Below the pieces are notes generated by a model. The model was not told the origin of the DNA. It made no database searches and worked only from the letters and a program-made list of their open reading frames with translations. A DNA stretch of 28,630 nucleotides from a virus, in the IMG/VR virus record IMGVR_UViG_3300032893_000232, positions 1-28,630 of that record; one strand, given 5' to 3'. The stretch's first letter is position 1. The number at the start of each line of letters is the position of its first letter. The translations under genes were made by a program, and so were the position numbers. Positions 308-27,475 of the stretch are shown one piece after another.

Positions 308-2204
308 TCCTACTGGGATTCTGTTTAATGATCCCCAAGCTAAGCCTCTATCTACTACGGGTTCCCCGCAGGCAGGGGCTTACTGGATATTCTATTTAAC
401 GGGGACTACTACTCCAGCTAACGTCTATCAAGATGGTGGTTTAACTACTCCCCTGAGTCAGGTTCCGGGAACTGCTCAGCCTAGCTGTACCGCCGATAGT
501 GCCGGTAGATTCAATCCTATCTATCTTGATCCAAGTGTTACTTATCGAGTCCAGCTATTCAATCAAACGGGCTCAAAGCTGGAAGATACGGACCCGTATG
601 TAGTCCCAACTGGTATAACGACGGCTACTGAGATTGGAGAGCTTTTATATCCCCAGTCTGTTGCTGAGATTAACGCCGGGGTTAGTCCTGTAAACTATGA
701 ATATCCACCTAATCACATTTTTCGCTACATAACTGATTTGGCGAATGTTCTGGCAGGAACTAGTGGGGTAGATAACTCGGTGGGAGCCCAGAACTGGCTC
801 AATACTCTTACTGTGGGGTGCACCGCTACCCTTATTGGAACAGTTAATGCTCAAGGTCTAATCCTTAAGACCAGTGATGTGCGTTTTACTGGCGGTGGAT
901 GGCTTAAACCTGTTTCTAATGCTGTAACGGCCACGGTACTTCAGATTGGCCAAGACTCAACTAGTACTTACGTTAGGCGTATAGCCGGTTCCCTTAATAT
1001 TGGGGACAAGACTGCCTTCTATACTAACTGGAGCAATATCACTGGGCTGGCACTCCAATATGGGGCTGAGCATAACTTAACTCTTAATCTTTACGGATTA
1101 GGGGTTGGTATGACCTTTAATCCCACACTAGGGGCTTCTGCCTATTGTCAATTTGTTCTACAGGATGTAATCAATAATGGGGTAGGGATTCTATTCAACG
1201 CAACCGGTACGGGCGGTTATTGTAATGAACATGATTTCTTCGGCGGTCGATTCTCCATGAATTCAAGTTCATGGGCTGCTGGCCAGTGCTATATCTACGG
1301 GCACAAGGTTGGAACGAACCTACCCAACAATATTCGTTTCTGGGGTCCTTCTTTTGAAGGCGCCAATAGAGTCTTAGATTGGGGTGGAGAAAGTCTCCGT
1401 ATTGAAAATGCTAGATGGGAAACCGGACTAAGTAGTGGAACTGCGGGCACTGATTTTGATACAGTTTTCTGGAATTTTACTTCCGATGCAACTAGGAATC
1501 GAATCAATCTCTCGTACAATTCTCAATGGTTATCCGGAGTCTATACTAATAGTCTCGGCTCTGGAACCCAAATCAATAACAGTACCTTCACGATGGTGGG
1601 GGATATGACCCCTTTCATTACAGCCGGGTGCTGGTTAGCTGTAACGATTTCCGGAGTTGTTCAAATTGTTCCAGTATTCGGGGCAACGTACAGTTCACCG
1701 AATACTACCGTCTACTGTGCTTCAGATTTAATAACGGCTTCACCTACCGCTGTTGTGGGTGCTCGTATTAATGATGCTGGGACGTTAAATTCTATTAAGT
1801 TGACCGTTAATGACGTTCCCACTATAGCTTCCTGTGGCTCTGAGGCTATCAATGATATGTTGATGTTTTTGAATCATTGCGCTCTATATATTACATCATT
1901 GAATGTCAACTATCCCGCCATGACTCTTTCGAGTCCTGCATCCGCGGCTAATGATGCCTTGCGCATTGTGAATGCAGGATCGGGGGGCAGGACTGCTGGA
2001 ATTACCGGAGCAGGTGATGGAACCTTTAATAAGTTAGGTTTATACGGTAATTCTCCAGCAGGCCAAGTTACTGGGTGGGGTACACCTACTGGCATAACAC
2101 AGGTATCAAACGTCCCCGGAGCTAGTGCTACTCTCGCACAATGTTCAGGAGTACTTGCCAAAATTATCGCTGATCTTAAAACTCTAGGATATTACGCAGC
2201 CTAA
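297..2204 (+). CDS. Tail spike / tail fibre protein 1 (receptor binding)
   Basis: A 635-residue adhesin. Residues 1 to about 140 form a virion-anchor domain (motifs PTGILFNDP, AGRFNPIYLDPSVTYRV, LYPQSVAEINAG) shared with the next gene. The middle is Gly/Asn/Thr-rich with alternating hydrophobics, as expected of a trimeric beta-helix. The last 70 residues carry a KLGLYGNSPAGQ motif and a short terminal helix (LAKIIADLKTLGYY) of the kind that closes many phage fibres. It should bind a cell-surface glycan or receptor; no catalytic residues of a depolymerase can be assigned. The ATG lies inside the previous gene's end and its stop overlaps the next ATG (TAATG), so translation is coupled. Codons are AT-leaning throughout, unlike the next gene's C-terminal part. 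The anchor homology is visible; receptor function is inferred. Confidence 0.85.
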   Translation: MAGNPTGILFNDPQAKPLSTTGSPQAGAYWIFYLTGTTTPANVYQDGGLTTPLSQVPGTAQPSCTADSAGRFNPIYLDPSVTYRVQLFNQTGSKLEDTDPYVVPTGITTATEIGELLYPQSVAEINAGVSPVNYEYPPNHIFRYITDLANVLAGTSGVDNSVGAQNWLNTLTVGCTATLIGTVNAQGLILKTSDVRFTGGGWLKPVSNAVTATVLQIGQDSTSTYVRRIAGSLNIGDKTAFYTNWSNITGLALQYGAEHNLTLNLYGLGVGMTFNPTLGASAYCQFVLQDVINNGVGILFNATGTGGYCNEHDFFGGRFSMNSSSWAAGQCYIYGHKVGTNLPNNIRFWGPSFEGANRVLDWGGESLRIENARWETGLSSGTAGTDFDTVFWNFTSDATRNRINLSYNSQWLSGVYTNSLGSGTQINNSTFTMVGDMTPFITAGCWLAVTISGVVQIVPVFGATYSSPNTTVYCASDLITASPTAVVGARINDAGTLNSIKLTVNDVPTIASCGSEAINDMLMFLNHCALYITSLNVNYPAMTLSSPASAANDALRIVNAGSGGRTAGITGAGDGTFNKLGLYGNSPAGQVTGWGTPTGITQVSNVPGASATLAQCSGVLAKIIADLKTLGYYAA

Positions 2205-4114
2205 TGACTTCCCCTCCGACTGGTATACTCTTTTACGATCCTAGAGATAAACCTACTTCTACTACTGGAACCTTCCAGCAGGGGTGTTACAGGTATTTCT
2301 ACTATACGGGAACCCTTACTCTAGCCCCCATCTATTCAGATGGTAATTTATCTGTTCCCCTCGGGCAACCGGTTACTGCAGGATCAGATGGGCGGTTTAC
2401 ACAGGTCTACCTTGATCCCTCGATTACCTATCGAGTTAAGCTCTTTAATTCAGGGAATAGTCAGCTAGATGATACTGATCCATTTGTAGTACCTTCTGGC
2501 TTACCTACTGCTAATCAGATCGGAGAAGTTCTTTATCCTCAAACCGCCGCCGAGCTCGCTGCGGGTGTGACGCCGACGAACTATGCGTACCCGCCTTACA
2601 ACGTACTGCGCTACGGGGCTGATCCGTCCGGGGTAGCTTCAAGCGTTACAGCATTCGACGATGCTTACAGCGCCGCTATGGCGGAGCTCCCGCAGCACGC
2701 CGCGGTCTACATCCCGGCGGGGAAATATCTGATCCCCTCGCCAGGACTTTCATGGACTAATCAGAACGACATCGCGCTAGTTGGCGATGGGCCGAACATG
2801 ACGGTCCTCACTGGGTCCGGCAGTAACTACACGATCCTTTCGATTAGCGCGGACACGGGTGCAGGCACCACCGGCACGAATCTGCGCCTGCAGAATTTCG
2901 GTATTTCCGCTGGAAGCGGCTTCACCGGCGTGAGCGGGATCTATCTTGCCGATTACTTTACTTTCTATCTTGGCAACTTGCAGCTCTACACGAGTGGCAA
3001 CTCGCTCAAGATGGCCGGCATGGCCTTGGGCGTGGTGGATAACGTCAACGCGCAGACTGCAGGGACCAACGCCGCCGGTAATAGCGCGCTTCTCTTGACG
3101 ACCGACACTGATTCAGTTGCTTGCGGTCCGATCATCTTTAATGGTGGTAACTTCAACGGTCAGAGCAGTGTGACTGCGGGCGGCGCGGTCTGGACCAAGG
3201 GCACGTTCGGCATCGTCTTCAACTCGACGTTGTTTACGGCTTTCGGCGGGTCGCTTACAAGCGTATTTGCCGCAACCAACAATGACGACATCACAATCAA
3301 CGGCGGTTACAGTGAGTCAGGCCGCAACACCAGCAGCAGCTCTACGGCGGTCCTGTTCGATCTCGGTGTCACAGCGGCGTGCCAAAACTTCAAACTCAAT
3401 GGCGGGACGTATTTCGCCGGCGCTAGCGGAAAAACGCTGAACTATGGCATCCTCGCGCATAACACGCAGGCGCTTTCGGTCGAGGGGGCAACATTCTCGG
3501 GCTTTAACACGGCGGCCATCAAGTACACCGTGAGCACGGCTTCGATGATCAATCTGAAGAACGTGTACAGCTCGGGCTCGGGCGGCCCGCCAGTTCTCGA
3601 CTCAAGCACCAACGGGCCGAACGCCGGCTACCTGAAGTCGTGGAACGATCCATGGCCCCGGCTCGACGCATCTTTGGTTGGCACCGGAGTCACTGCTGTT
3701 ACAGGAGATGGCACGGCTTACACCGTCCTCTTCGACACGGCGAACTTCGATACAACCAGCATGTACGCCTCGGGCACCGGGATCGCGACCGTGCCGACGC
3801 AAGGTGCAGGCATGTACGATGTGTCGGTCGCGGTGATGATCAACTCGCTCACCACCTCGTATACAAACTACCAGCTCGACATCGTGCAGAAGACCGCCGG
3901 TGGTAGCGTCGTGACGACTCACTCTGTGAGCACAAACCCAGGCGTGGTCAAGAACGCCGCGAACCAAGCATCCCTGCACCAAAACTGCCTCCTGAAGTGC
4001 GCCGGCGGGGATCAGATCTACGTGGTCGTCACAGTATCGGGTAGTTCGAAGTCTGTGGGCATTGTGGGGGCCGCTACCGAGTATACGCGGCTTAATGTGC
4101 GCTACATTGGATGA
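2204..4114 (+). CDS. Tail spike protein 2, pectate-lyase-like beta-helix with C1q-like tip
   Basis: A 636-residue spike. Residues 1 to about 130 match the anchor of spike 1 (PTGILFYDP, DGRFTQVYLDPSITYRV, LYPQTAAELAAGV). From about residue 133 (VLRYGADPSG) the sequence resembles the Pectate_lyase_3 family: a capping region, then beta-helix coils, with IPAGKYLIP and ALVGDGPNMT as typical early-coil motifs. The last 140 residues (VLFDTANFDTT, GAGMYDVSVAV, CAGGDQIYVVV, YTRLNVRYIG) look like a C1q/TNF-type trimeric jelly roll. Such spikes bind and often cleave surface polysaccharide, but I cannot assign catalytic acids. Base composition switches from AT-leaning to strongly GC-rich near 2540, inside the anchor, so most of this gene looks imported. 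It starts on the stop codon of spike 1. Confidence 0.88.
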   Translation: MTSPPTGILFYDPRDKPTSTTGTFQQGCYRYFYYTGTLTLAPIYSDGNLSVPLGQPVTAGSDGRFTQVYLDPSITYRVKLFNSGNSQLDDTDPFVVPSGLPTANQIGEVLYPQTAAELAAGVTPTNYAYPPYNVLRYGADPSGVASSVTAFDDAYSAAMAELPQHAAVYIPAGKYLIPSPGLSWTNQNDIALVGDGPNMTVLTGSGSNYTILSISADTGAGTTGTNLRLQNFGISAGSGFTGVSGIYLADYFTFYLGNLQLYTSGNSLKMAGMALGVVDNVNAQTAGTNAAGNSALLLTTDTDSVACGPIIFNGGNFNGQSSVTAGGAVWTKGTFGIVFNSTLFTAFGGSLTSVFAATNNDDITINGGYSESGRNTSSSSTAVLFDLGVTAACQNFKLNGGTYFAGASGKTLNYGILAHNTQALSVEGATFSGFNTAAIKYTVSTASMINLKNVYSSGSGGPPVLDSSTNGPNAGYLKSWNDPWPRLDASLVGTGVTAVTGDGTAYTVLFDTANFDTTSMYASGTGIATVPTQGAGMYDVSVAVMINSLTTSYTNYQLDIVQKTAGGSVVTTHSVSTNPGVVKNAANQASLHQNCLLKCAGGDQIYVVVTVSGSSKSVGIVGAATEYTRLNVRYIG

Positions 4115-14257: not shown

Positions 14258-14841
14258 AGCTGATATCCTCTAAATTCTGGACCGTGGAGTGGAGGATGCC
14301 CGTCATCGGGATTTGTTCCCTGTTGAATAGCCTGTTGTAATAGAATCGGCTTCCAATCTTTTAAGTGTTCTACACTTACCGGAACATACCGCATATCGTT
14401 GAAAGTGCTAAAATTTTCTCCTACCCCTACACTATCTACTACTCGGGCCGCATGAGTATGACCGTGGATGTTGAGGCGGAATCTCCGGAGTTGATTCGGA
14501 TGCACTGGAACATGGGTGAGTATATTCTGGCCTACCACTGCAGCCCCATAGAGAACCTCGAAATGCTGCCTCAGCATTCTATACTTATCCGTGCTGCCGT
14601 CATGATTCCCAAGAACCAGTCTCTTATATCCTCTCAAAAGAGGTAGTTTAGTGTAACCATCCCTAAAATATACATCACCTAAATGCCAGATCGTATCATT
14701 CTCAGCTACTACGGAATTCCAAGCTTCCACCAGAGCCTTGTCGTGAGCCTCAATATCCCCCCCAAATCCTCGGGTCTCGGCCATGAGTTTATGGCCGAAA
14801 TGAGTATCACTGATGACCCAGACTTTAGCCTGTCTAGCCAT
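14254..14841 (-). CDS. Calcineurin-like metallophosphoesterase
   Basis: A 195-residue member with all five motifs: D12/H14 (ISDTHFGH), D56 (HLGDVYF), N79-H80-D81 (LGNHDGS), H110 (ILTHVPVH) and H126/H128/H130 (NIHGHTH), which together hold two metal ions. Members cleave phosphomonoesters or phosphodiesters, including nucleotides and RNA ends. It follows the RNA ligase with a TAATG overlap, suggesting the two enzymes are made together; this phosphatase may heal RNA ends before ligation, but a nucleotide hydrolase role is equally compatible with the motifs. Confidence 0.9.
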   Translation of the reverse strand: MARQAKVWVISDTHFGHKLMAETRGFGGDIEAHDKALVEAWNSVVAENDTIWHLGDVYFRDGYTKLPLLRGYKRLVLGNHDGSTDKYRMLRQHFEVLYGAAVVGQNILTHVPVHPNQLRRFRLNIHGHTHAARVVDSVGVGENFSTFNDMRYVPVSVEHLKDWKPILLQQAIQQGTNPDDGHPPLHGPEFRGYQL

Positions 14842-15473
14842 TATACACCACCACTCTTTTCAATCCGCTCCAGTTCTTGGGCTGCTGAGTAAGCCTGTAC
14901 ATTCTTGGGAACGTCATCTTTCTCTAGGGTTGCTTTTACCATGAAATTCCCATGAGTATGGAAGGCTACTACTCCCTCCGGCTTGCTATAGCCGGGCGCA
15001 GCTACTGATCCGTTACTTCTCAAAAACTCCAGAGAAAAGTCTACGAGATCGTTAATCCGAGTCCCCCGAACAATCTCGGGGACCACATGGCAACAATCCG
15101 GTTTCCACTCAGCCCATCGAGTTGTGTTGAATAGACTGAATCGCTTCTCGTCTAATCCATACCCCCTCTGAATTCCTTTTCCCCACCACTCTCCGAAGTG
15201 ATGACCAACTCCAAGTCCAAGTAACTCTTCGATATGGTCGTAGCACCATCTGGCGAATCCGTGATTGTCCTTATCCGGTGTAATCCATCTGGTACGTGAT
15301 CCGACATAAATATCGTAATGGACTCCATTCTGGACGGTTCTAATTCCACTCTCGTCCGGTAAATCCCCGACTGAGGGCGTAATAAGAATCGATGCGTTAG
15401 TACCATCTATCTTCTCCGTTACGATAATCTCCCGATGGAGCCTTGGAATCTTTGGATAATCGTCAAATTGCAT
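14841..15473 (-). CDS. RNA ligase, Rnl2-like family
   Basis: A 210-residue nucleotidyltransferase. Motif I is TEKIDGTNA with K21 as the AMP-accepting lysine; motif Ia-like VGSRTRW follows; motif III/IIIa region GEWWGKGIQRGYG (E95) and FSLFN; motif IV PEGVVAF (E166); motif V MVKATL (K180). This set fits Rnl2-type RNA ligases that join 3'-OH and 5'-phosphate RNA ends. AAGGA nine bases upstream supports the ATG. It is shorter than T4 Rnl2, with little C-terminal domain. The 30 bases around its start are duplicated 52 bases upstream. The partner downstream is a metallophosphoesterase. Confidence 0.85.
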   Translation of the reverse strand: MQFDDYPKIPRLHREIIVTEKIDGTNASILITPSVGDLPDESGIRTVQNGVHYDIYVGSRTRWITPDKDNHGFARWCYDHIEELLGLGVGHHFGEWWGKGIQRGYGLDEKRFSLFNTTRWAEWKPDCCHVVPEIVRGTRINDLVDFSLEFLRSNGSVAAPGYSKPEGVVAFHTHGNFMVKATLEKDDVPKNVQAYSAAQELERIEKSGGV

Positions 15474-15694: not shown

Positions 15695-16903
15695 TTATTC
15701 CTCTAAAACTCTAGAAAGCATTGGATCAATTCTTATAGGAAACCCATCGTGATTTCCACTTACTTTATTCTTTGGAAAAGATAAATACCTCACATTCATC
15801 TTTTCATCTTCCTCAGTTGCTCCCACGCCCAGCATTAAATCAACTTGGCCGGGAATTCCAACGTTACTTGAGTCAACGTCCCCTCGGTTGAGGATTCTCT
15901 TGCCTGAGGCACTATCCGCAGCCTGCGAGACGGAGACCACCAGAAGCTTATTACGTTTGGCAAGGTTCCTCGCTTCTGTCGCAGCCTTTTCGAGAGCCTG
16001 AGTTCGATTATCGCTATCCACATCAATGTTACGAAGCTGGTCCAGAACAACAACTCTAGGCTGGAACTTAGTAACCAACCGCTGAATTGTGTCGAAATTT
16101 CCCGGAGCCAGCGGAGCAAAGATAACATTCTCGTATTTCCTTCGTTCTAGTAAGCTTTGCGCCTTAGCGGGGTCTTTAAGTACTTCATGTTTAGGCATTA
16201 AGGTGAGGCGGTTTATATACCGCATCATCAAATCTTCTACAGGGTCCTCATTTCCTACGTAAAGACAAGGAATATCACTAACAGCCCAACCAGCCAGCAT
16301 GTTAAGAACAATAAGCGTTTTCGCAATCTCAGTCGGTCCGAATACGAGGATGTGATGTCCCGGACGACAGCCACCACCCAACATATCATTGAGCCGCTTA
16401 GGCAGGATAGGAATAAGACCTTTAGGATCAAAGGATTTCTCCAGTAGATCGGTTACTGCAAACTTATGACGAATGTCCTCATCTTCACTAGAGCCAGTGG
16501 AAGAAGCCGAACCGATAAGGTCCGAGTACTTTCCTAATAAGCTCTTGATTGTATTCAAGTCTTCTGACTCTCTCTGCAAGGCCACCGCCAGCCTTAGCCC
16601 AGCGTCGTTCCGCCTCATCGAGTTCAGCTCTTGTAACACATTCTCCGGACTTGTTTCCGGAGGGTTCAAAAGGAAGTTCTTCAGTAGTTCCAGTTGGGAC
16701 TTGTTCTGGACCTTTCGTGAGAGTTTTGGAACTAATAGTTCCGTATCCACAGAATTTGCAGCGGAATCCGTTGTATAGTAATCCGTTATAAGTCCAAGTA
16801 ATAGGGTCGTGTCCGGAGCTAGCTCCGCAGTTCCCACAGAATCCTTTAACGATTCCCACGCTTTGCGGGACTTGAGACATGCTGCTAGAATCCTGCTTTC
16901 CAT
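15695..16903 (-). CDS. Replicative DNA helicase, DnaB/gp4-like RecA fold
   Basis: A 402-residue helicase. The N-terminal 130 residues resemble a DnaB-type N-domain (ESRILAACLKSRKAWESL, LITDYYTTDSAANSVDTELL), with a Ser-rich hinge, then the RecA core. Walker A is unusual: GPTEIAKT has Ala where Gly normally precedes Lys. Other core elements are YVGNEDP, Walker B RVVVLDQLRN, the VVSVSQAA strand, and GDVDSSNVGIPGQVDLMLGVG with the late arginine/sensor region. It should unwind the fork 5'-3' with the separate primase encoded just upstream. I chose ATG at 16903 because it overlaps the preceding stop (TGATG); GTG and TTG two and three codons earlier are possible. A second credible frame runs through the N-domain coding region. 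Confidence 0.88.
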   Translation of the reverse strand: MESRILAACLKSRKAWESLKDSVGTAELAPDTTLLLGLITDYYTTDSAANSVDTELLVPKLSRKVQNKSQLELLKNFLLNPPETSPENVLQELNSMRRNDAGLRLAVALQRESEDLNTIKSLLGKYSDLIGSASSTGSSEDEDIRHKFAVTDLLEKSFDPKGLIPILPKRLNDMLGGGCRPGHHILVFGPTEIAKTLIVLNMLAGWAVSDIPCLYVGNEDPVEDLMMRYINRLTLMPKHEVLKDPAKAQSLLERRKYENVIFAPLAPGNFDTIQRLVTKFQPRVVVLDQLRNIDVDSDNRTQALEKAATEARNLAKRNKLLVVSVSQAADSASGKRILNRGDVDSSNVGIPGQVDLMLGVGATEEDEKMNVRYLSFPKNKVSGNHDGFPIRIDPMLSRVLEE

Positions 16904-16922
16904 CACCAATTACTCGGTTCAT
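16488..16922 (-). CDS. Possible overprinted zinc-ribbon protein inside the helicase gene
   Basis: A 144-codon frame starting ATG at 16922, with GGAG ten bases upstream, overlaps the helicase N-domain in a different frame. It encodes FCGNCGASSGH, an aromatic/Gly stretch, then FRCKFCGYGTIS: two CxxCG knuckles 21 residues apart, exactly a zinc-ribbon layout. A charged helical C-terminus follows (RAELDEAERRWAKAGGGLAE). The helicase frame across the same bases also looks real, so this would be a genuine double-coding region. The frame is also open further upstream to 17186, inside the CCG gene, which weakens the case a little. Either a real overlapping gene or a striking coincidence. Confidence 0.4.
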   Translation of the reverse strand: MNRVIGDGKQDSSSMSQVPQSVGIVKGFCGNCGASSGHDPITWTYNGLLYNGFRCKFCGYGTISSKTLTKGPEQVPTGTTEELPFEPSGNKSGECVTRAELDEAERRWAKAGGGLAERVRRLEYNQELIRKVLGPYRFGFFHWL

Positions 16923-17327: not shown

Positions 17328-18191
17328 TTAGGAAGCTCCTTCGATTCGGGCTCTTATTTCCTCGTCCGAGCAGTATTTCAAATCTCTCTCAAGAATAGCA
17401 ACCTTAAAGTCCCCAAATAGCCTGAATTTCTTCTTAAATTTCAATGCCTTATCCGTGGCATCTTTGTCTAGTGCGAGAACAAGTGTACGGTCCAGCGAAT
17501 GAGCAAGTAACTCACGGCAACTATCGTAATTAATATGGCTCCCGTATAGACATGCCGCAGGATAGGTTCTAGAAACCTTAATCGCTGACAGAGAATCTTC
17601 CACCGCGACGGTGGCTTGAAGATTAGACGCTCGGTAGCTTTCCCGAGTAAACCAGCCCACTCTTGACCAAGCCTGTTCGATATATAGTTCCACCTTTCTT
17701 TGGGTGGTATCTCCAAAATTTCTTCTAACCTCCGTGCCCAATCGTATTTCATTGCTATCGCGGATCGGGATAACAAGCCTGCCGCTACCATCTTCTTCGC
17801 AAACTCCAAACCGATCAAGTTCTTCTTTTTCAAGATCGAATAAGGATAGAAACTGGGACAACGTAGTTGCTCCCAAACCCACGGTTCTACCGCTATACAT
17901 TCGTGTAGGCGGGTCAGTTGAGTTGCTGACGGGAGGATTATCAGGGTATGGGGTCTCGGATATAATCCCATTTCCTTTGCCACCAATATACCCATTGAAA
18001 CCACAAGTGGCACGGTGACAACAGTATCCAACTCTAGTTTGTGAAATTCGGGTAAGGGAAAGTGAATTTTCCCTAGTTCTACCGCCACCGCATAGGGGAC
18101 AAACAATCCCGCTTCGCTGTTCGCCCACTCCCAAGGAGGCGGCAAGTCGTCGAATTTGCTCACGAGCAGATCGGAAACCTTCACGATTCAT
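17328..18191 (-). CDS. DNA primase (zinc-binding plus toprim domain)
   Basis: A 287-residue primase of the T7 gp4 type but without a fused helicase. The zinc-binding domain uses C31/C34 (VCPLCGG), then C57 or C58 and C63 (YCCHRATCGFNG). The toprim core has E198 (VAVEDSLSAIK) and D242/D244 (LALDKDAT). It makes RNA primers for the lagging strand. AAGGA precedes the ATG at short spacing. T7 encodes primase and helicase as one protein; here they are separate genes with an unknown CCG protein between them. Confidence 0.88.
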   Translation of the reverse strand: MNREGFRSAREQIRRLAASLGVGEQRSGIVCPLCGGGRTRENSLSLTRISQTRVGYCCHRATCGFNGYIGGKGNGIISETPYPDNPPVSNSTDPPTRMYSGRTVGLGATTLSQFLSLFDLEKEELDRFGVCEEDGSGRLVIPIRDSNEIRLGTEVRRNFGDTTQRKVELYIEQAWSRVGWFTRESYRASNLQATVAVEDSLSAIKVSRTYPAACLYGSHINYDSCRELLAHSLDRTLVLALDKDATDKALKFKKKFRLFGDFKVAILERDLKYCSDEEIRARIEGAS

Positions 18192-19754: not shown

Positions 19755-20135
19755 CTAATCTTCTTCAAGTGCTTGAATTCTATCATATTTTAGCTCTTTT
19801 AAGGCTCTTGCTACGACCTTTTTAAGGTTAACTTTCTTCTTCAAGTCCTTGGTTAACTGAGTCTTTTTCTGAGGTTTACCTACCCTATCCGCAGCATTCT
19901 CCGCACTGGTGCCCCAATACAGATGCCTTGGATTCGAGCAAAGTTTGTTATCACAAGCATGACAAAGATGAAACTTGTTCCCTTTAGGAACAGTTGTTCC
20001 TAAGAAATGCGCCAATAAGGCCCTACATTCTCCAGAAGTCTTAGTCCCTAGAAGTAAACACGCCTCATTCAGGTTTAAGTGAGCTTGCCTACTCTCCCTA
20101 GGTCGTTGAATATACTCATGAATATCAAGGAACAT
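19755..20135 (-). CDS. HNH endonuclease (HNH_3-like)
   Basis: A 126-residue HNH nuclease. The core is [20 protein letters not shown] followed by [11 protein letters not shown]56, C58, H59, C61 and C66 in the His/Cys cluster, N68, H71, and N80 as the final catalytic region. The C-terminal third is Lys-rich ([14 protein letters not shown]), probably DNA binding. Such free-standing HNH genes are mobile and often sit at operon edges; this one lies between the peptide-ligase cluster and the promoter gap. It overlaps the upstream gene by 11 bases. Confidence 0.85.
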
Positions 20136-20892
20136 TTTCTTCTTTTAAGGCTGATTTGAACAGTACTGATGCTTTGCGCATGGCACTAGCAACCAAAGAA
20201 TTCCAGTTCCTATCTTTCAAGATTTTCTTAGTCTCCGGAGACATAGATTGACTCTGCCAGCCCTCGAATACAGCCTTTGCCCATGTTTCCCGGTCAGGTT
20301 CCTGAGGATTGAACATCTGCGCCGAGTTTGGAATTATGAATTCGTAGGCGTATTCAGGTATCCAAATCCACATTTGGCTGAGACTGAAGTCCTCCGGAGA
20401 GTTGTGTCGGACATTTTTTCCAATGGGAGAACAGTACATGGTTCCGATTCTGTACTTAATCAAATACTCGACTAAGGTAGAGGTATGAAACTCGAACTTG
20501 AACTTTCCACCAGAGCCACGTCCATAGTAGGGTCTACAAGGAGTGTCCTTATTGACGCAATCCCCCATGAGAACGAAAGTAAATTTTGGATATTGCTTAC
20601 CGATCCCAGTAGATAACAGATATGTAATGATTGTTCTAATGAGAGGCTCGTCAGGTTCCCACGGAATTCCATGAGTTACTCCGTTAGAATAGGCTCCTAT
20701 TGAATAGAGACAGGCTGCCTGACACCCGAGACTCGATTGGCTGTAACTTCCTGAGATCGTGTAACTTTCGCTTCTCCCATCATCGAACTTCACCGTGAAC
20801 TTGGGCATCTGCACGTCGAATGTGTAGCCCATTTCGGTGCTCTTGGTATCGTTTGAGGATGGCTTCTGCATAGAGTTGGATGGTTCGTTCAT
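20125..20892 (-). CDS. Unknown protein of the peptide-ligase cluster (up to 255 residues)
   Basis: I do not recognise this family. It has a beta-rich N-terminal half ([19 protein letters not shown]), a Cys-containing segment ([27 protein letters not shown]), a central region ([34 protein letters not shown]) and a helical end ([12 protein letters not shown]). Conserved-looking Cys and Gly-rich loops could belong to an enzyme. The start is unsure: this ATG overlaps the ATP-grasp gene by 113 bases, while in-frame ATGs at 20832 and 20808 give proteins starting MGYTFDV or MPKFTVKF; none has a good ribosome site. Position makes it part of the ligase operon, possibly enzyme, acceptor or carrier. Confidence 0.65.
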
Positions 20893-21697
20893 TTTCTAAC
20901 CCCGGGCCAGTGTTAACTTCACAAATCCTGAAACTCTTCAGTTCTCTTGTCTCTTTGTCCAAGATTCCAAGAACATCAACAGCCCCAAAATCCAGACCAA
21001 GAGAAGCGACACACTCACTGCAAGCCTTGCGAATAGCGTTGATGGAATCCGTGTCCAGATCAAGCCCATCGTGAGCATGCACCCACCCATTATCAAGGCT
21101 CCGAATATCCCTCCTTGAATTCGGATAGTCATGCTTGAGCTTTTTCTGAGTGAAATCAATGAGTTCACCGTCCTTCCACACATGGAACCTAAACTCATGG
21201 GTTTTGGGATAGTAGCGAGTGTACAACGGGGCCTCAGGAAGTTCCTTACCCGGCTGTACTATCTCAATACCGGCTCCACTACTTCCAGTAAGAGTCTTTC
21301 TCGCCACTACCCCAAAGCCTTTTTTGAGCCACTTTAAAGCCTTTTCGCGGTCACTAGTGGCTCTAAGTATCGGTAATTCACTCCCTCCTGCAAAATGCTG
21401 GAAGAATTTGAGCTTGTTAATAGCCCGGTCAACATTTTCGCTTCCATTGAGCCATTTCGGGCTAAGTCGAAAGCGGCTGTCACTGAGCCATGTCGCAGGA
21501 TTAGTCGATCCCCAATTAACGACCATCGGAGACGAGTTCCCCCGGAAATAGGGACGTCTCCGCCTATACCTCTCAGGCAGATCGTCTCTCCATCGACGAG
21601 AGCCAAGAGCGGTAGCGAGTTTCCGGGCGGAATTAGAATTTCGAGCGGCATATACAACTAGATCGTAGAACTTAAACCTATCTTTTCTTTTTCTCAT
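20780..21697 (-). CDS. ATP-grasp ligase, RimK-like
   Basis: A 305-residue ATP-grasp enzyme. The basic N-terminus (MRKRKDRFKFYD) is followed by an N-domain, then the nucleotide-binding loop GVVARKTLTGSSGAGI (K134), the substrate/ATP segment YTRYYPKTHEFRFHV (R161, E168, R170), KKLKHDY, GWVHAH, and the metal site DFGAVDVLG (D241) with FRICEVNTGPGLE (E260, N262). Such enzymes activate a carboxylate as acyl phosphate and couple it to an amine, often adding an amino acid to a peptide. In this operon it likely forms one amide bond of an unknown product. Confidence 0.9.
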   Translation of the reverse strand: MRKRKDRFKFYDLVVYAARNSNSARKLATALGSRRWRDDLPERYRRRRPYFRGNSSPMVVNWGSTNPATWLSDSRFRLSPKWLNGSENVDRAINKLKFFQHFAGGSELPILRATSDREKALKWLKKGFGVVARKTLTGSSGAGIEIVQPGKELPEAPLYTRYYPKTHEFRFHVWKDGELIDFTQKKLKHDYPNSRRDIRSLDNGWVHAHDGLDLDTDSINAIRKACSECVASLGLDFGAVDVLGILDKETRELKSFRICEVNTGPGLENERTIQLYAEAILKRYQEHRNGLHIRRADAQVHGEVR

Positions 21698-21709
21698 TTT
21701 GATAGCTTT

Positions 21710-22498
21710 CTACAGTCCGGCGTTAACAACCCCCGGTCCTGCTATTGAGATTCGATGAATCTTTCTTTGTTGAGTGAAGTTAGCTTTGTACCAGACCTTC
21801 CCGCGAGCATCCACGACGGTCTTATGACTATCCGGTTTGCTGGTCGGGATCATTAGCAAAGGCTTCACTTTCCCATCTGTGCCTGTGATCTCTCCACGAA
21901 TTCGGTAAGTCCCTATGTTCTTTCCACTCTCAACCTCGAATAGCTCTGCGTATCCGGGCTTGTCCTTGAGCATGCTCCATCGAACTTTGGGGGCAGCTAC
22001 CGTCTGGATTATTGGTTTTACTGGTACGGACACTGGTGCTGATAGAGTCAAGATCGGCCTCTCTTTATTGTCGTATGCATCAAACCCTGAGAAAAACATC
22101 TTCGGAGATAACGGTCCCCTCCAATTACCATCCGGGACGTACCATTGGTAGTGGTCTACTTCTTCCCGAGATTGGGTGTAGACCCACACCTTCCCGAACT
22201 CTGGAATTTCTACCTGTTCTCTCTGGAAGAACCCCGTATTTACCCCCTCATATCTGTCCAAGGCTGTGATTGTGGCTAAATCCCGAACCTTATATACCTC
22301 CCCTGTAATCGCAACCCCCTTTTCATACAGGTGAATTGCTGGGAATCCTCCGACATGAAACATGATTCCTTTCAAGTACTTGGAATCTCCCATGAAATCG
22401 GAATCCCACAGATACTGTTTGTGAGGATCGAATCCCTTCTTAAGGGTTCCGTAGACATACACTAAGGGTCGTTGTGGGTCGTGTGCAATCATGCTCAT
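21710..22498 (-). CDS. Gamma-glutamylcyclotransferase-like (AIG2/GGCT) protein with C-terminal extension
   Basis: A 262-residue protein. Residues 12 to about 130 are a GGCT/AIG2 domain: VYVYGTLKKGF (substrate-binding YGTL loop), ITGEVYKV (E67), LDRYEGVNTGFFQREQV. GGCT enzymes release pyroglutamate from gamma-glutamyl amides. Residues about 150-262 are a beta-rich extension (GYAELFEVESGKNIGTYRIRG, KVKPLLMIPTSK) that I do not recognise. It could trim or recycle gamma-linked amides made by the neighbouring ligases. It begins one base after the amidotransferase stop, with AGGTG upstream. Confidence 0.85.
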   Translation of the reverse strand: MSMIAHDPQRPLVYVYGTLKKGFDPHKQYLWDSDFMGDSKYLKGIMFHVGGFPAIHLYEKGVAITGEVYKVRDLATITALDRYEGVNTGFFQREQVEIPEFGKVWVYTQSREEVDHYQWYVPDGNWRGPLSPKMFFSGFDAYDNKERPILTLSAPVSVPVKPIIQTVAAPKVRWSMLKDKPGYAELFEVESGKNIGTYRIRGEITGTDGKVKPLLMIPTSKPDSHKTVVDARGKVWYKANFTQQRKIHRISIAGPGVVNAGL

Positions 22499-22499
22499 G

Positions 22500-24083
22500 T
22501 TACATCACCTGACTGGCATTGTCGCGCGGCCACTTAATCTCGGGATTTGTTTCCCCAACATAATCCCAGAATTCTTGTTTGTTTTGGCATTCTGGGCAGA
22601 TTGGCTCATCCCCCCTTATCCAGATGAGTTCAAGATGATCTTTAGTATGAATATCCCCAGTGCAATAAGAGCAGCCATTTTTAGTAAGCTCCAAGAACCT
22701 TGCTGGGGTGACATACTGTCCTGTGGGTCCCAAGTATATACGTCCCTCTTCTTGTGGACCGTAGTAGTGCGGGTAGATGCTACTTTTGGACTGTGCTTCA
22801 CGAAGTTTCTCGCGAAAAAAGGTCTCCGACCTCTCCGCGTGCAGGACGTGCTCGGTCACAACCATGACTGTACGATTGTTGGCATCGAGCTTCTTGATAT
22901 TCACCACGTTGCAGAACACCTTGCCGAACTCCTTGTACTTCTGATAATCGGCTCTGTTGACATTCAGCATAGCAAAGGTGAGTTTCGGGAAGGTTGTGGA
23001 ACTCCCCAACATCAGCCCTAAGTCCTTGTTATTCTTATGTTCTTCCCATGAATCGGGGGTTAGGATTACGGCTTGGTGGAACCTCAATCCGAATTTCGCC
23101 AGTTCCTTCGATGCTGACTGTACCCGAGAAGGTTTGCGAGGTAAGCCCGCGAGCTTGGTTTCCGGGAGGGCGATCCGCTTAAGCCGAAGAAATTCCTTTA
23201 CGGCCTCGGTGTTCTCAAGGTCCACCACTCGTCCATCCGTGCCCAGAATCTCTCGAAGCAACTCCTGTTTAGAAATCTCCCCCTCGGCCAAAGGGCGGAT
23301 ATTATTCCCCCCGGTCGAATAGTTCGGCCCAAGATGCGTAATCGGGTACGTCGGGGGCCTTGCAACAAAAGGGCGGTGAACGTACTCCCTTACGTTATCC
23401 ACACTGAACTTGAACCATCCCATCGCATCCGGAAACAGAACCTTCTCGATCTTCATTCCCCGACGCTCAAGTAAGTGGATCAGGTTGGTGTACTCGGACG
23501 TGTAATACAGTGTGTTACGACCTTTGACGTAGGCAAAATACAGCGGTTTCTTGTCATTTCGAGCGATGTTGAAGCTGCCATCCCGCGTGTTGTGCCAGAC
23601 CATGGCGAATGGTCCCTTGAGCATTTCGAGGACCTTTTCCTCGTCCTCGTTCTCCTTCACATTGGCCATGCAGTAGGCCACGACCTCGCTGTCCACGACC
23701 ATATCCTTCGGTCGATCTTGGAACGGCATGAGATCATAGGTGTTCTCGATGGTTCCGTTGTGTTCGAGGGTAATATGCTTGTGCTGGAATGGGTGGGCAT
23801 TCCGCGTGACATTGTTCCCTTTGGTAGCAGATCGACAATGACCCATCACAATGGAGTAATCATTGATCTGCTCGAATACCTTCTGGACGAACGGCCGTCC
23901 GCAGAAATCGAACGCACACAAGGCGTCCTTGTAGATGATGGGAGATTCTTTCTCCTTCCCTTTCGTGGTCAGACTGAGACCTATGGCCTCAAATCCCCTC
24001 CACATATTCGAGAGTAGGCCCTCATGAAGGAACCCGGAACTCTCAGTTTTCTCGCTAGAAACAAACCCGACCAATCCGCACAC
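22500..24083 (-). CDS. Class-II glutamine amidotransferase, GlmS-like
   Basis: A 527-residue enzyme. Cys2 (MCGLVGFV) becomes the N-terminal nucleophile after Met removal; GHCRSATKGNN (R84), HITLEHNGTIENT (N109-G110) and DSEVV (D131) complete the glutaminase site, which releases ammonia from glutamine. The first 250 residues are this domain. The C-terminal half lacks the GlmS isomerase motifs and ends in a zinc ribbon (C471/C474 in CSYCTGD, C496/C499 in ICPECQ). The start is GTG with AGGAG eight bases upstream, fixed by the need for Cys at position 2. It probably supplies ammonia for amide synthesis by the amidoligases. Confidence 0.92.
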   Translation of the reverse strand: MCGLVGFVSSEKTESSGFLHEGLLSNMWRGFEAIGLSLTTKGKEKESPIIYKDALCAFDFCGRPFVQKVFEQINDYSIVMGHCRSATKGNNVTRNAHPFQHKHITLEHNGTIENTYDLMPFQDRPKDMVVDSEVVAYCMANVKENEDEEKVLEMLKGPFAMVWHNTRDGSFNIARNDKKPLYFAYVKGRNTLYYTSEYTNLIHLLERRGMKIEKVLFPDAMGWFKFSVDNVREYVHRPFVARPPTYPITHLGPNYSTGGNNIRPLAEGEISKQELLREILGTDGRVVDLENTEAVKEFLRLKRIALPETKLAGLPRKPSRVQSASKELAKFGLRFHQAVILTPDSWEEHKNNKDLGLMLGSSTTFPKLTFAMLNVNRADYQKYKEFGKVFCNVVNIKKLDANNRTVMVVTEHVLHAERSETFFREKLREAQSKSSIYPHYYGPQEEGRIYLGPTGQYVTPARFLELTKNGCSYCTGDIHTKDHLELIWIRGDEPICPECQNKQEFWDYVGETNPEIKWPRDNASQVM

Positions 24084-24098
24084 TTTATTATCTCCTAG

Positions 24099-25280
24099 TT
24101 AGAACTGTCCAAGAGGATTCCACACCACATCCGGAGGATTAATGTTCATGTTCTGTTCTGCTACTGGTTGCGCTGGCGGTTCCGGGGGCATAAGCGCAAC
24201 ATAGGCATCGTCTATGATCTGCCCCGGGGCATTCACCTGAGCAAATGCCATATCATAGCCACCTTTTTTGAGACTTTTCTTATAGTCCTCAACTATTTTT
24301 TTTAGCTCTTCCTTTTTCTTGGCATCTACGTCTCTCGCTCGTTCCAAGAACCGATTGAACCCGTAATGCTTCCCCTCAGGAACCTGTAACTCTTCCCAAT
24401 CCTTCTGTTTCAAGCCGTAGAGTACCAAATCCTTGGCAGTTGGTATCCCAACCTCATGCATCAGACGGGGAGCATCTGCGGTCCAGAGCTTGGCTGCAAG
24501 CTCATTTCCGAACACGTATTTCAAGAACTCATGGCTTGGGGTTGATTTGGCGGTCTTGATTATCGCCCCATCGCTGGTAGGCAGCTTGAATGTGGCTGCC
24601 TTGAGGGACTGGATCATATTAATCCAGTCGATAACCCTCGGAAAGTCGTGGGTGGTCCGCATGTGGCGGAATTCCACGGACCCGAACTTGGACAAGGCTT
24701 GGAGATTCAACGCTGAGTAGCGATTGAACTTCTTGGATACCCCGTAAGTCAGATTGCTTTGGTACTTCTCGTCCTGCAATGCGGACTTTACGAGCTTGCA
24801 AGTCTCCAGCAAGGATTCGTCGGCTTTGTAGAACGGAATGCAGAAGATGAAATTTTCCCGGTTATCTCCAATCCACTGGAACAGGATCGGCTCAACAATG
24901 GTGTAGAGAATGATGAATCCGATCAACTGGGACAATTCCAAATCTCGCACATCCAAGTGTACGTGGATACCCGCTCTGACGCTGCACTTCCACTGGAGCT
25001 TACGGGCACCCTCCATGAGTCCCTGAATGGCATTGTAGGCATCCGCTCCGAACATGGGGGAGGCGAAGATGAATTCAGTCCCATTGTCTTTGAGACTATC
25101 ATCCTTGTGGGTGGTCCACGAGGACTTCAGAAGCTGATTCCCCTCAAAAATGAGAGGTACATCGTGAACCCCCTCGTACTCAAATTCCAGTCCAATCATG
25201 GACTTGGGAAGAACCCACCGGGCATCCGGGGAATAGGTACGGAGTTCTTTTGGTTTCCCTAAAACGTCGCCAAGAGCCAT
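24099..25280 (-). CDS. Amidoligase (glutamine synthetase-fold COOH-NH2 ligase)
   Basis: A 393-residue member of the putative amidoligase family. Metal and ATP site features: IGLEFEYEG (E32, E34), DNGTEFIFASP (E69), GIHVHLDV (H106, H108) and GSVEFRHMRTT (E203, R205, R208). The fold is that of glutamine synthetase and glutamate-cysteine ligase, forming an amide from a carboxylate and an amine using ATP. The C-terminal region includes charged helices (DAKKKEELKKIVEDYKK) and a Pro-rich tail (MPPEPPAQPVAEQ). AAGGA seven bases upstream supports the ATG. Substrates unknown. Confidence 0.88.
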   Translation of the reverse strand: MALGDVLGKPKELRTYSPDARWVLPKSMIGLEFEYEGVHDVPLIFEGNQLLKSSWTTHKDDSLKDNGTEFIFASPMFGADAYNAIQGLMEGARKLQWKCSVRAGIHVHLDVRDLELSQLIGFIILYTIVEPILFQWIGDNRENFIFCIPFYKADESLLETCKLVKSALQDEKYQSNLTYGVSKKFNRYSALNLQALSKFGSVEFRHMRTTHDFPRVIDWINMIQSLKAATFKLPTSDGAIIKTAKSTPSHEFLKYVFGNELAAKLWTADAPRLMHEVGIPTAKDLVLYGLKQKDWEELQVPEGKHYGFNRFLERARDVDAKKKEELKKIVEDYKKSLKKGGYDMAFAQVNAPGQIIDDAYVALMPPEPPAQPVAEQNMNINPPDVVWNPLGQF

Positions 25281-25291
25281 ATATTTATCCT

Positions 25292-26005
25292 TTAGATCGT
25301 TCGGACGTAGGCGTCGGGATACTTTTCTTGTAGTTCTTCCTGATAATCGTCAAATTCCGGACTCAACAGGATGGTTTTGGGGTCAGGAACGTAGCCCATT
25401 TGCCACCGTTTGTAGGCTAGGATTGGATAGCGGCGATCCGGAAGGCTAAACAACCCCAAGTTATTGGTTATTGGCTCTCCAACTGAGAGACCTTCCTCTA
25501 ATCGATTGAAAGCTTCCTTTAAGGTGCAGAACTTCCGATTAAAGAGTTTCCACACAATGTCCCACTTCGAGGTTACCCCCTCAACAAGAGCCATCGAGTA
25601 CACAGTCTTGCGACTTGTCAAATTCCGCAGATAGAACGATGTAAAGTCGTAGAATCTCAATCGATCCAACCGGAGTCCCCGATTGGTGTGTCTCTCGGCT
25701 AAGACTGCGGTATAGATCAATTCCGATTCATCTTCCAGCATTCCAACCGGGGGTGTTCCGAAATCACACTGTTGTTTCAGCTCCTCCCAATCTAAGATTA
25801 CTTTTTGGAGTTTGTGGCCATTAAACTCTCCCACCGGATTCCCGTTAGCCGGGAACATTAAGGCTACTGGTATCTTGGTACCATTTGGATTTCCAGTTGG
25901 GCAGAGGGGGTGAATGGTTTTATCATCCCCCCTGAATCCAATCCAACCTCCAGTGTAGTACCGAACGAAGTCCTCCGGAAGCTCAACATCACATTTGCGG
26001 ATCAT
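25292..26005 (-). CDS. Unknown 237-residue protein of the peptide-ligase cluster
   Basis: Not recognised. It has aromatic- and Gly-rich N-terminal sequence (FVRYYTGGWIGFRGDDKTIH), PNGTKIPVALMFPANGNPVG, a central segment (RLDRLRFYDFTSFYLRNLTSR) and a Tyr/Pro-rich end. It is set between the two ligases with an ATGA overlap to the upstream one and AAGGAG before its ATG. The pattern of YDF and RNL motifs suggests a globular enzyme or binding protein rather than a structural one. A strong candidate for a specific component of this system. Confidence 0.7.
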   Translation of the reverse strand: MIRKCDVELPEDFVRYYTGGWIGFRGDDKTIHPLCPTGNPNGTKIPVALMFPANGNPVGEFNGHKLQKVILDWEELKQQCDFGTPPVGMLEDESELIYTAVLAERHTNRGLRLDRLRFYDFTSFYLRNLTSRKTVYSMALVEGVTSKWDIVWKLFNRKFCTLKEAFNRLEEGLSVGEPITNNLGLFSLPDRRYPILAYKRWQMGYVPDPKTILLSPEFDDYQEELQEKYPDAYVRTI

Positions 26006-27033
26006 GGGAGATTGTCTCCTTCCATAGGCTCATCTTCTGCAGGCATATAAGCCTCCGGGGGAGGAGCCATGAATGGATTGGCGGCCTTCTTGTACAATAA
26101 TCTGGGATCACGCCCCAGATCGAGCAGAGAATACATATTCCCCGGCCAGAACTTCACTACGTGTTCGACAATCTCCTTAGCCAAAACAACATTCTCCGTG
26201 TTGATTGCCTTCTGGACCTCCTGCCACGGAACCTTCTGGTAAATATCCTTGAGAGTGTTGGCCTCACGGTTGGCCATGTGGGCCAAGCTGAAGATATTCT
26301 TGGCCAGATAGGTCTGAAGATGCCCGGTTTGTTCGTTGTTCTTCAGCCAGAAATTGGAGGGGGTACGATATTCAATCCCATAAGGCTTGGGACGAAACAC
26401 TCCTGCGACGCCGTAGAACTTTCGACGATCTCCTTGCTTATCCAAATTCAGGAAGGGTAGTCCAGCCACCAAATCCATGAATCGTGCAAATACGGGCCTT
26501 GGGACTTCTGCGTGATTGTACTGGACGTGAAGGTGTCCACCACAGAACCGTTCGTTCCCCAGTTCCTCAATCCCGAACGGTCTCCGAATCATCGAATCAC
26601 GTGGCAGATAGGCGCAGTAGTCCGGACTACACCCGATAACTTTGGCGAGAGGGTGTTCCAGAAACTTGGGCTGGAAGGTATAGCGATTCTTGAAAGAGAG
26701 CCCGAGACTCTTGTTGGCCAGCGTATTCTGGCGCAGATAATTCAGGAAACCTTGGATGTAACGTGGGAAATATTCCGGGTCTGAGACTGCCGGAACATTG
26801 AATTCAAACATCACATTATCTTCTTGGTAGGCAAAGTCGCCTACCGACCCTTTATCGTAGGGGATATGCCCGAGAAGGGATAACGGAACCTTAACAGGTT
26901 CTTGTTTGGTTCCTCCCACCAACCCGCAGACGGGAATTACGACTGGGGTTTTCTTTTTCTCCGACCTGACTTCGGTTACGAACAGTTCAGGATCAGCCCC
27001 TAAGCGGGGGCCAGCGTCTAGCTTTTCTGCCAT
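26002..27033 (-). CDS. COOH-NH2 ligase type 2 (phiEco32-like family)
   Basis: A 343-residue protein matching the phage phiEco32-like COOH-NH2 ligase type 2: GADPELFVTE (D14, E16) at the N-terminus, DNVMFEFNV (E77), FCGGHLHVQY (H167, H169), and RRKFYGVAGVFRPKPYGIEY followed by RTPSNFW (E221, R223). The fold is that of glutamine synthetase-like amidoligases. It should form an ATP-dependent amide bond. The C-terminal tail is Pro/Glu-rich (PPPEAYMPAEDEPMEG). It is the first gene of the cluster, with GAGAG before the ATG, and overlaps the next gene by four bases. Confidence 0.9.
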   Translation of the reverse strand: MAEKLDAGPRLGADPELFVTEVRSEKKKTPVVIPVCGLVGGTKQEPVKVPLSLLGHIPYDKGSVGDFAYQEDNVMFEFNVPAVSDPEYFPRYIQGFLNYLRQNTLANKSLGLSFKNRYTFQPKFLEHPLAKVIGCSPDYCAYLPRDSMIRRPFGIEELGNERFCGGHLHVQYNHAEVPRPVFARFMDLVAGLPFLNLDKQGDRRKFYGVAGVFRPKPYGIEYRTPSNFWLKNNEQTGHLQTYLAKNIFSLAHMANREANTLKDIYQKVPWQEVQKAINTENVVLAKEIVEHVVKFWPGNMYSLLDLGRDPRLLYKKAANPFMAPPPEAYMPAEDEPMEGDNLP

Positions 27034-27058: not shown

Positions 27059-27382
27059 TTAATGGATAAAGTCCAACATCTTCTCTCGCACGGGCTGGAG
27101 AGGGTTCCATCCCGTTATCTTCTGGATTTCTTCCCAAGAACTCGTTTCCTCTTTCGGAGGCGGAAGTTTTTGCAGGTAAATCTCAGCTACCCAACACCCT
27201 AGACCGCCTTCTACCTGAACATCCCATCCTAACATTCTATGGGGTGAGCTAGCATGGCTGGGATGGTACAGGGGGCCCAATTCCAAAACGCAAATTTTCC
27301 CAATATTCATACTGAACTTGACATCAACTTTGCCCAGAGGGATAGGGAGAATGATGCACCGATCACCTACTTTAAAGCCCAT
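27059..27382 (-). CDS. Unknown 107-residue SH3/KOW-like protein
   Basis: The strong GGAGGT four bases upstream of the ATG at 27382 fixes the start; a longer frame would read into the tRNA gene. It begins GFKVGDRCIILPIPLGK, like small SH3 or KOW barrels, continues ICVLELGPLYHPSHASS and GWDVQVEG, then ends with SSWEEIQKITGWNP, a helix common at the end of such phage proteins. Function unknown. Confidence 0.65.
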   Translation of the reverse strand: MGFKVGDRCIILPIPLGKVDVKFSMNIGKICVLELGPLYHPSHASSPHRMLGWDVQVEGGLGCWVAEIYLQKLPPPKEETSSWEEIQKITGWNPLQPVREKMLDFIH

Positions 27383-27398
27383 ACCTACCTCCAAGTTA

Positions 27399-27470
27399 TG
27401 CCGGAGGTAGGAATCGAACCCACGACCCATGCACCACAACTGCATGCCTCTACCACTGAGTTACTCCGGC
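27399..27470 (-). tRNA. tRNA, anticodon ambiguous (TGT by fold, GTG/His by loop sequence)
   Basis: A full cloverleaf on the - strand. The acceptor stem is GCCGGAG with CTCCGGC (7 bp); the D-arm is ACTC-AGTGGTA-GAGG (one A-G mismatch); the anticodon stem is ATGCA/TGCAT with loop GTTGTGG; the variable loop is GGGTC; the T-arm is GTGGG-TTCGATT-CCTAC. The discriminator is A and no CCA is encoded. Strict folding places TGT at 34-36, which would be Thr, but G32, G37 and G38 are atypical for Thr. The loop text TTGTGGT is exactly that of bacterial tRNA-His(GTG) and the GTCGTGGGTTCGA stretch also looks His-like. The gene lies between a terminator and the SH3-like gene. Confidence 0.85.
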
Positions 27471-27475
27471 ATACG

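Follow-up and report, generated by a model that had tools for sequence, protein, structure and literature searches.

The window, by which is meant the whole of the IMG/VR virus record IMGVR_UViG_3300032893_000232 (28,630 bases), carries on its minus strand a cluster of seven genes that is very probably a working member of the amidoligase cassette known from phages of the phiEco32/LUZ24 type; it is a divergent new copy of a published cassette, not a novel cluster. The seven open reading frames (ORFs) run from 27033 down to 20125 with gaps of -4, 11, 15, 1 and 12 bases as far as the ATP-grasp gene, which the last gene overlaps by 53-113 bases depending on the choice of start codon, and the tight seven-gene cluster described in an earlier sequence-only reading of this DNA is therefore confirmed in its coordinates, strand and short gaps. 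The gene order given in that reading is corrected here: in the direction of transcription the cluster encodes a COOH-NH2 ligase, a protein of a family named X, a second ligase (Amidoligase_2), a glutaminase, a predicted gamma-glutamyl cyclotransferase (GGACT), an ATP-grasp ligase and a protein named B (Table 1). Added by the present analysis are the constancy of X, the alternation of GGACT with a C26-type enzyme, the near absence of the cassette from bacterial genomes, a corrected list of catalytic residues, and Bas92 as a laboratory phage with the complete cassette.

Enzymes of the cassette and their conservation

Four of the seven proteins score above a curated Pfam cut-off, X and B have no Pfam match, and the predicted domain assignments are far beyond chance. 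The two ligases of the glutamine synthetase (GS) clan are the COOH-NH2 ligase (Pfam score 41.5 bits, cut-off 25; phrog_3815, E 3e-42) and the amidoligase (27.0 bits, cut-off 22; phrog_7469, E 3e-44); the glutaminase matches GATase_6 (64.8 bits, cut-off 27), the cyclotransferase matches PF06094 (68.3 bits, cut-off 22.8), and the ATP-grasp ligase matches phrog_2599 (E 2e-57). The set of enzymes proposed in the sequence-only reading thus stands on Pfam, PHROG and family-profile evidence. Its description of the glutaminase as GlmS-like is correct for the glutaminase domain only: residues 2-206 alone fit the glmS model, with 56 bits against a cut-off of 418, no sugar-isomerase domain was found with the full-length glmS model, and the C-terminal part is a region with four conserved cysteines. 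The family profile of the ATP-grasp ligase finds RimK structures (5zct, E 5e-9; 4iwx, E 6e-9) as its nearest solved relatives, followed by cyanophycin synthases and graspetide ligases, and the protein scores 18.2 bits against the cut-off of 143.4 for the RimK subfamily (TIGR00768). Sequence searches of the PDB with the profiles of the amidoligase, the COOH-NH2 ligase and X returned no relatives, and long ATP-grasp, glutaminase and ligase ORFs checked for domain fusions contained no informative Pfam domain.

The active sites are conserved among about 140 divergent members of the cassette, conservation being expressed as the percentage of aligned cassette members that have the residue. Residues D14, E16, D72, E77, G134, C135, H167, R203, Y207, R214, E221 and R223 of the COOH-NH2 ligase (135-136 members) and E32, E34, H106, H108, Y188, E203 and R205 of the amidoligase are 100% conserved. 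The glutaminase keeps its nucleophile C2 in 98%, R84, H97, N109 and G110 in 100% and D131 in 96%, and the ATP-grasp ligase keeps K95, E168, R170, K185, D241 and E260 in 100% and N262 in 99%. Of the catalytic residues singled out in the sequence-only reading, amidoligase E32 holds and ATP-grasp K134 does not; by this alignment K134, which is present in only 24% of 153 aligned members (R133 is present in 83%), is not a conserved catalytic residue.

The cassette was compared across 179 loci, some of which overlap on one contig: 16 named phages, the window, its own copy (L005) and 161 IMG/VR loci. The four core enzymes (COOH-NH2 ligase, amidoligase, glutaminase and ATP-grasp ligase), sought with hidden Markov models (HMMs), occur together in 146 of the 179 loci and lie on one strand in all 146 of these complete loci, with a median span of 5.0 kb; the window has all four (PF14395, PF12224, the glutaminase and the ATP-grasp ligase) on one strand. 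Most of the other 33 loci are cut by a contig end, and seven long loci (L108, L120, L125, L150, L162, L169 and L171) have the amidoligase and/or the ATP-grasp ligase only. Among complete clusters, then, the homologues do not occur singly. Pairwise distances of the cassette proteins are correlated (Mantel r 0.37-0.78, with 0 of 2000 permutations as high) in a comparison that took in cassette proteins only. The amide-linked pathway proposed in the sequence-only reading is supported as a coherent amide-bond pathway because neighbourhood, strand and catalytic residues are conserved and divergence is correlated; it is not wholly new, since this type of cluster has been published and a target, host peptidoglycan, has been proposed.

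Conversely, the genes might be unrelated or decaying metabolic passengers with no joint function, for which the glutaminase gene of phage TL, annotated in two pieces as if the cassette were perhaps dispensable there, could be cited; this is extremely improbable given the conservation of catalytic residues at up to 100% and the constant co-occurrence of the core enzymes. In phage TL (L192, 3001-4102) either full-length glutaminase may be dispensable or the record may have a sequence error. In the rhizobial phages RHph_N3_19 and phiM6 (L194, L195), two annotated glutamine amidotransferase genes flank the ligases.

Among known systems, the cassette of phiEco32, LUZ24, PaP3 and tf (phi32_77-86; LUZ24 gp16-gp22) resembles the window most in layout: the order COOH-NH2 ligase, X, amidoligase, glutaminase is the same, the ATP-grasp ligase and GGACT follow, and all form one same-strand block upstream of primase/helicase. 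It differs in that the window enzymes are only about 22-35% identical to their counterparts, the window GGACT precedes the ATP-grasp ligase and has a C-terminal extension, B comes after, and genes like gp14/gp15 are not seen upstream in the window. The Zobellviridae cassette (PA11, RIO-1, CW02, Klyazma) has the same four enzymes and X, but its glutaminase gene is upstream of the ligases and a C26-type class-I glutamine amidotransferase (GATase1) is usual. The PSA-HP1 cassette (PMC5498523) and the phiM6 segment (PMC6256558) have the same predicted enzymes in seven genes; the published texts name the enzymes, but no conserved role for X. Considered singly, the window ATP-grasp ligase shares with RimK alpha-L-glutamate ligases the fold and the catalytic D, E and N residues, but it scores below the subfamily cut-off and its family is always found with GS-type ligases; the glutaminase shares with GlmS and PurF an N-terminal glutaminase domain with an intact active site, but has the four-cysteine region in place of an isomerase or phosphoribosyltransferase (PRTase) domain.

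Protein searches of 50,697 phage records matched the COOH-NH2 ligase in 306, the amidoligase in 340, the ATP-grasp ligase in 299 and the glutaminase in 320, all at less than 60% identity and mostly at about 25-35%; at the DNA level no close phage record was found for the window. Carriers of the cassette number about 300 among sequenced phages and more than 500 among viral contigs; they include phiEco32, LUZ24, PaP3, tf, PA11, 7-11, Vp_R1, Klyazma, RIO-1, CW02, phiM6 and RHph_N3_19, as well as the laboratory phage Bas92 of the BASEL collection, a phage of E. coli K-12 with the full set (Bas92_0059-0068). When 84,980 species genomes of bacteria and archaea were searched with profiles, only 12 contigs were returned, all from metagenome-assembled genomes (MAGs) and 4.8-49.5 kb in length, of which nine carry the cassette; none was found in an isolate bacterial chromosome among these genomes. 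With matches limited to 12 short MAG contigs, the cassette seems to be a phage property that apparently does not reside in host chromosomes. The other three contigs (L184, L185 and L187) have a COOH-NH2 ligase with no second ligase detected, and the glutaminase and ATP-grasp ligase are likewise undetected; two of the three are only about 5 kb long, L184 and L185 also encode GGACT and a C26-type protein, and all three possibly represent a reduced or different system.

In the literature, a seven-gene "Peptidoglycan Modification Cassette" has been described in Pseudoalteromonas phage PSA-HP1 (PMC5498523), a 7-ORF peptide-bond segment of phiM6 has been proposed to modify host peptidoglycan (PMC6256558), and the cassette has been presented as a means to prevent superinfection (PMC10580990); all three are predictions that go back to Iyer et al. 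(2009) and to Hardies et al. (2013). Published cases of this cassette, with peptidoglycan modification as its predicted function, include phiEco32, LUZ24, PA11 and RIO-1. A paper on phage knock-down by CRISPRi-ART mentions no phage of the cassette-bearing type.

Protein X, protein B and the gamma-glutamyl-cleaving enzymes

Protein X, which the sequence-only reading had counted with B as an orphan, has a family across phages and is, by profile comparison, a constant component of the cassette, new in this analysis. An iterative HMM seeded with X of the window and of six near relatives converged on 128 ORFs, 116 of which lie exactly between the COOH-NH2 ligase and the amidoligase, as in the window. 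All 16 reference phages have a counterpart (including phi32_85, LUZ24 gp17, PaP3 p47 and PA11 gp006), 120 of the 146 complete loci have X with the cassette, and among loci added afterwards, which had no part in building the model, X is present in all 13 whose amidoligase gene is intact (L179-L183, L186, L188-L190, L192-L195). The family joins phrog_4877 and phrog_11055, both of 'unknown function'; X of the close relative L018 matches both. The AF2 model of X (pLDDT 85, pTM 0.82) matches 11 viral predicted structures in BFVD at E 9e-5 or lower, including X of CW02 and Vp_R1, the next match being at E 0.024; the fold search against the PDB gave no significant match, only weak SH3/Tudor-like barrels at E 0.18 or worse. 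The conserved positions of X are arginine and glycine (R105, G88, G110, G204), not a catalytic set, and X may therefore serve the adjacent ligase as a structural or substrate-binding partner. Checked for features of a carrier or tag, X has no invariant Lys, Glu or Ser and no conserved acceptor C-terminal tail, and neither X nor B fits a carrier of the Pup/PafA or LysW type.

Twenty-six complete clusters, such as L041, L045 and L060, have no detectable X, and most of these are ordered GGACT, ATP-grasp ligase, C26-type protein, COOH-NH2 ligase, glutaminase, amidoligase. The amidoligases of most X-less clusters have an N-terminal extension of about 190 residues with no known relative. Fusion of X as the N-terminal part of these longer amidoligases was considered, as size and place fit, but is not supported: profile comparison showed no similarity to X, at a probability of 0.1.

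Protein B, in keeping with its earlier description as an orphan, has relatives only in close kin: eight other loci have one, in every case immediately following the ATP-grasp gene, and B appears on sequence comparison to be a lineage-specific addition confined to the close relatives of the window. Its residues G56, C57, N114, L144, P156, N160 and W177 are invariant and an N-x-x-H motif is present in all members but one; judged from these relatives, the true start is probably at 20832 or 20808. No PDB or PHROG relative of B was found, and its AF2 model (pLDDT 53) was unreliable and was left out of the fold search.

The product of the fifth gene is predicted to be a gamma-glutamyl cyclotransferase by its YGTL motif (Y16 G17 T18 L19, of which Y16, G17 and L19 are conserved) and catalytic E84 (E84 in 74 of 75 members); its C-terminal extension is about 130 residues long, and the closest relatives have GGACT proteins of like length. 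Among the 146 complete clusters, 44 have GGACT alone, 59 have a C26-type class-I glutamine amidotransferase alone, 35 have both and eight have neither, so that one or both types, GGACT in the case of the window, occur in 138. The C26-type proteins keep the Cys/His/Glu triad (C87 97%, H183 97%, E185 100%; n=98). Two unrelated types of predicted gamma-glutamyl-cleaving enzyme thus alternate in one cassette, which is the best sequence evidence on its chemistry and suggests that a gamma-glutamyl intermediate is removed or trimmed; the build-and-trim pathway of the sequence-only reading is compatible with this distribution. Small gamma-glutamyl compounds are the characteristic substrates of the GGCT and C26 families, so a small-molecule substrate would be favoured over a protein.

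Predicted reactions and candidate products

According to later papers, such cassettes were predicted by Iyer et al. in 2009 to join amino-acid-like building blocks. A mechanism acting on a small gamma-glutamyl molecule is, on balance, probable, with reactions in the following proposed order. Glutamine would supply ammonia (or a gamma-glutamyl group) through the class-II glutaminase. With ATP, the two GS-clan ligases, one of them paired with X, would activate carboxylates and link them in amide bonds of the gamma-glutamyl type. A further amino-acid residue would be attached by the RimK-like ATP-grasp enzyme, and GGACT, or the C26-type hydrolase in other phages, would strip gamma-glutamyl groups, either as removal of a protecting group or as trimming. 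A small molecule of the cytosol is the most likely substrate; a peptidoglycan precursor, tentatively the foremost specific candidate, would hinder superinfection through its altered side chain.

Several points weigh against this interpretation. For altered peptidoglycan to block superinfection before a lytic cycle ends, the wall would have to turn over quickly, and RimK-like ATP-grasp enzymes also modify proteins. No N-terminal hydrophobic segment was found in any of the seven cluster proteins, and their action must therefore be cytosolic, which fits a cytosolic precursor as the substrate. The correlated distances of the cassette proteins indicate joint inheritance, in which functional coupling and shared phage ancestry are not separated, and the literature search found no biochemical or genetic experiment on the product of the cassette.

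Three alternatives stand behind the gamma-glutamyl small-molecule mechanism. The most plausible of them is a free soluble peptide, followed by the tagging of proteins and, last, the modification of nucleic acids. Glutathione is made and turned over by a GS-type ligase, an ATP-grasp ligase and GGCT together, and no envelope-targeting part is seen in the cluster, so that the product could be a gamma-glutamyl peptide resembling glutathione, or a small inhibitor, directed against host metabolism, redox or defence. Early expression is also suggested by mass spectrometry of the phiEco32-like phage SU10, which detected the glutaminase, the ATP-grasp ligase and YtfP/GGACT and listed them as early gene products (PMC4281155). 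Two GS-type ligases and a glutaminase are, however, more than glutathione needs, and there is no conserved transporter or sensor, which makes a free soluble product doubtful.

The ATP-grasp and GS-type ligases might instead tag proteins of the host or the virion with glutamate or a short peptide, for which there are precedents in RimK, which acts on ribosomal protein S6, and in PafA with Pup. The RimK ligases as nearest solved relatives of the ATP-grasp enzyme and the strongly basic charge of the window protein (+18) would be in keeping with such tagging, but the score of the protein is far below the RimK subfamily cut-off, the charge is not conserved (-9 in phiEco32, +1 in LUZ24), GGACT and C26 enzymes typically handle small gamma-glutamyl compounds, and X, the only conserved non-enzyme, has neither carrier or tag residues nor a tail. 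Protein tagging, one of the products suggested in the sequence-only reading, is thus possible and not specifically favoured; it is considered unlikely. About equally improbable is a novel gamma-glutamyl-linked compound, neither peptidoglycan nor protein, made by a ligase complex centred on X and disabling a function of the host or of a rival phage; the modelled fold of X appears to have no known relatives outside cassette-bearing phages.

As a constant component, X would be the missing partner for reconstitution in vitro, and Bas92, a laboratory phage with the full set, makes the long-standing question of the cassette product testable.

Gene table and neighbourhood

Table 1. Cassette genes of the window in order of transcription, with two context genes from outside the cassette
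Feature	Coordinates	Strand	Basis
COOH-NH2 ligase, GS clan, PF14395, 343 aa	26002..27033	-	Pfam, phrog_3815, conserved residues
X (family X), 237 aa, non-enzyme-like cassette protein	25292..26005	-	iterative HMM, AF2 model
Amidoligase_2, GS clan, PF12224, 393 aa	24099..25280	-	Pfam, phrog_7469, conserved residues
Class-II glutamine amidotransferase (Ntn, C2 nucleophile), 527 aa, GTG start	22500..24083	-	GATase_6, residues
Predicted gamma-glutamyl cyclotransferase (GGACT/AIG2) with C-terminal extension	21710..22498	-	PF06094, motif residues
RimK-like ATP-grasp ligase, 305 aa	20780..21697	-	phrog_2599, family profile, residues
Protein B, up to 255 aa	20125..20892	-	relatives in 8 other loci
Primase-like gene (context)	17328..18191	-	phrog_47, E 5e-9
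Helicase (context)	15695-16909	-	downstream, same strand as cassette

Downstream of the cassette on the same strand are an HNH gene, small genes, the primase-like gene, the helicase, an RNA ligase and a family-A DNA polymerase, so that the cassette lies upstream of replication genes; primase/helicase also comes after the cassette in LUZ24, PA11, Klyazma, CW02 and phiEco32. This position beside replication genes, together with the RNA ligase and a tRNA-Thr gene in the window, would suit a role in which amino acids or peptides are added to phage DNA or RNA as hypermodifications. Known routes through 5-hydroxymethyluracil need a base hydroxymethylase of the thymidylate-synthase type. An enzyme of that type was found in only one of 12 cassette contigs tested, several of which are fragments, and no base-modifying gene is constant in the cassette, leaving nucleic-acid hypermodification very unlikely. 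The charge of the ATP-grasp ligase was dropped as a pointer to a nucleic-acid substrate because it is not conserved.

The tRNA-Thr gene (anticodon TGT, 27398-27471, minus strand) is directly upstream of the cassette, and since the ORF at 27059-27445 overlaps it, the true start of that ORF is probably internal. The RNA ligase is Rnl2-like (PF09414, phrog_548; 14841-15473, minus strand) and adjoins a calcineurin-like phosphoesterase, with which it possibly forms an RNA repair pair. The podovirus portal family PF12236 was not detected in the close relatives of the window, and for that reason no virion type is claimed for its phage. On the plus strand, two adjoining genes (297-2204 and 2204-4114) encode large proteins, probably tail spikes, whose N-termini are alike (GILF-DP--KP-STTG) and whose remainders differ; homologues of the first protein occur in four of seven close relatives.

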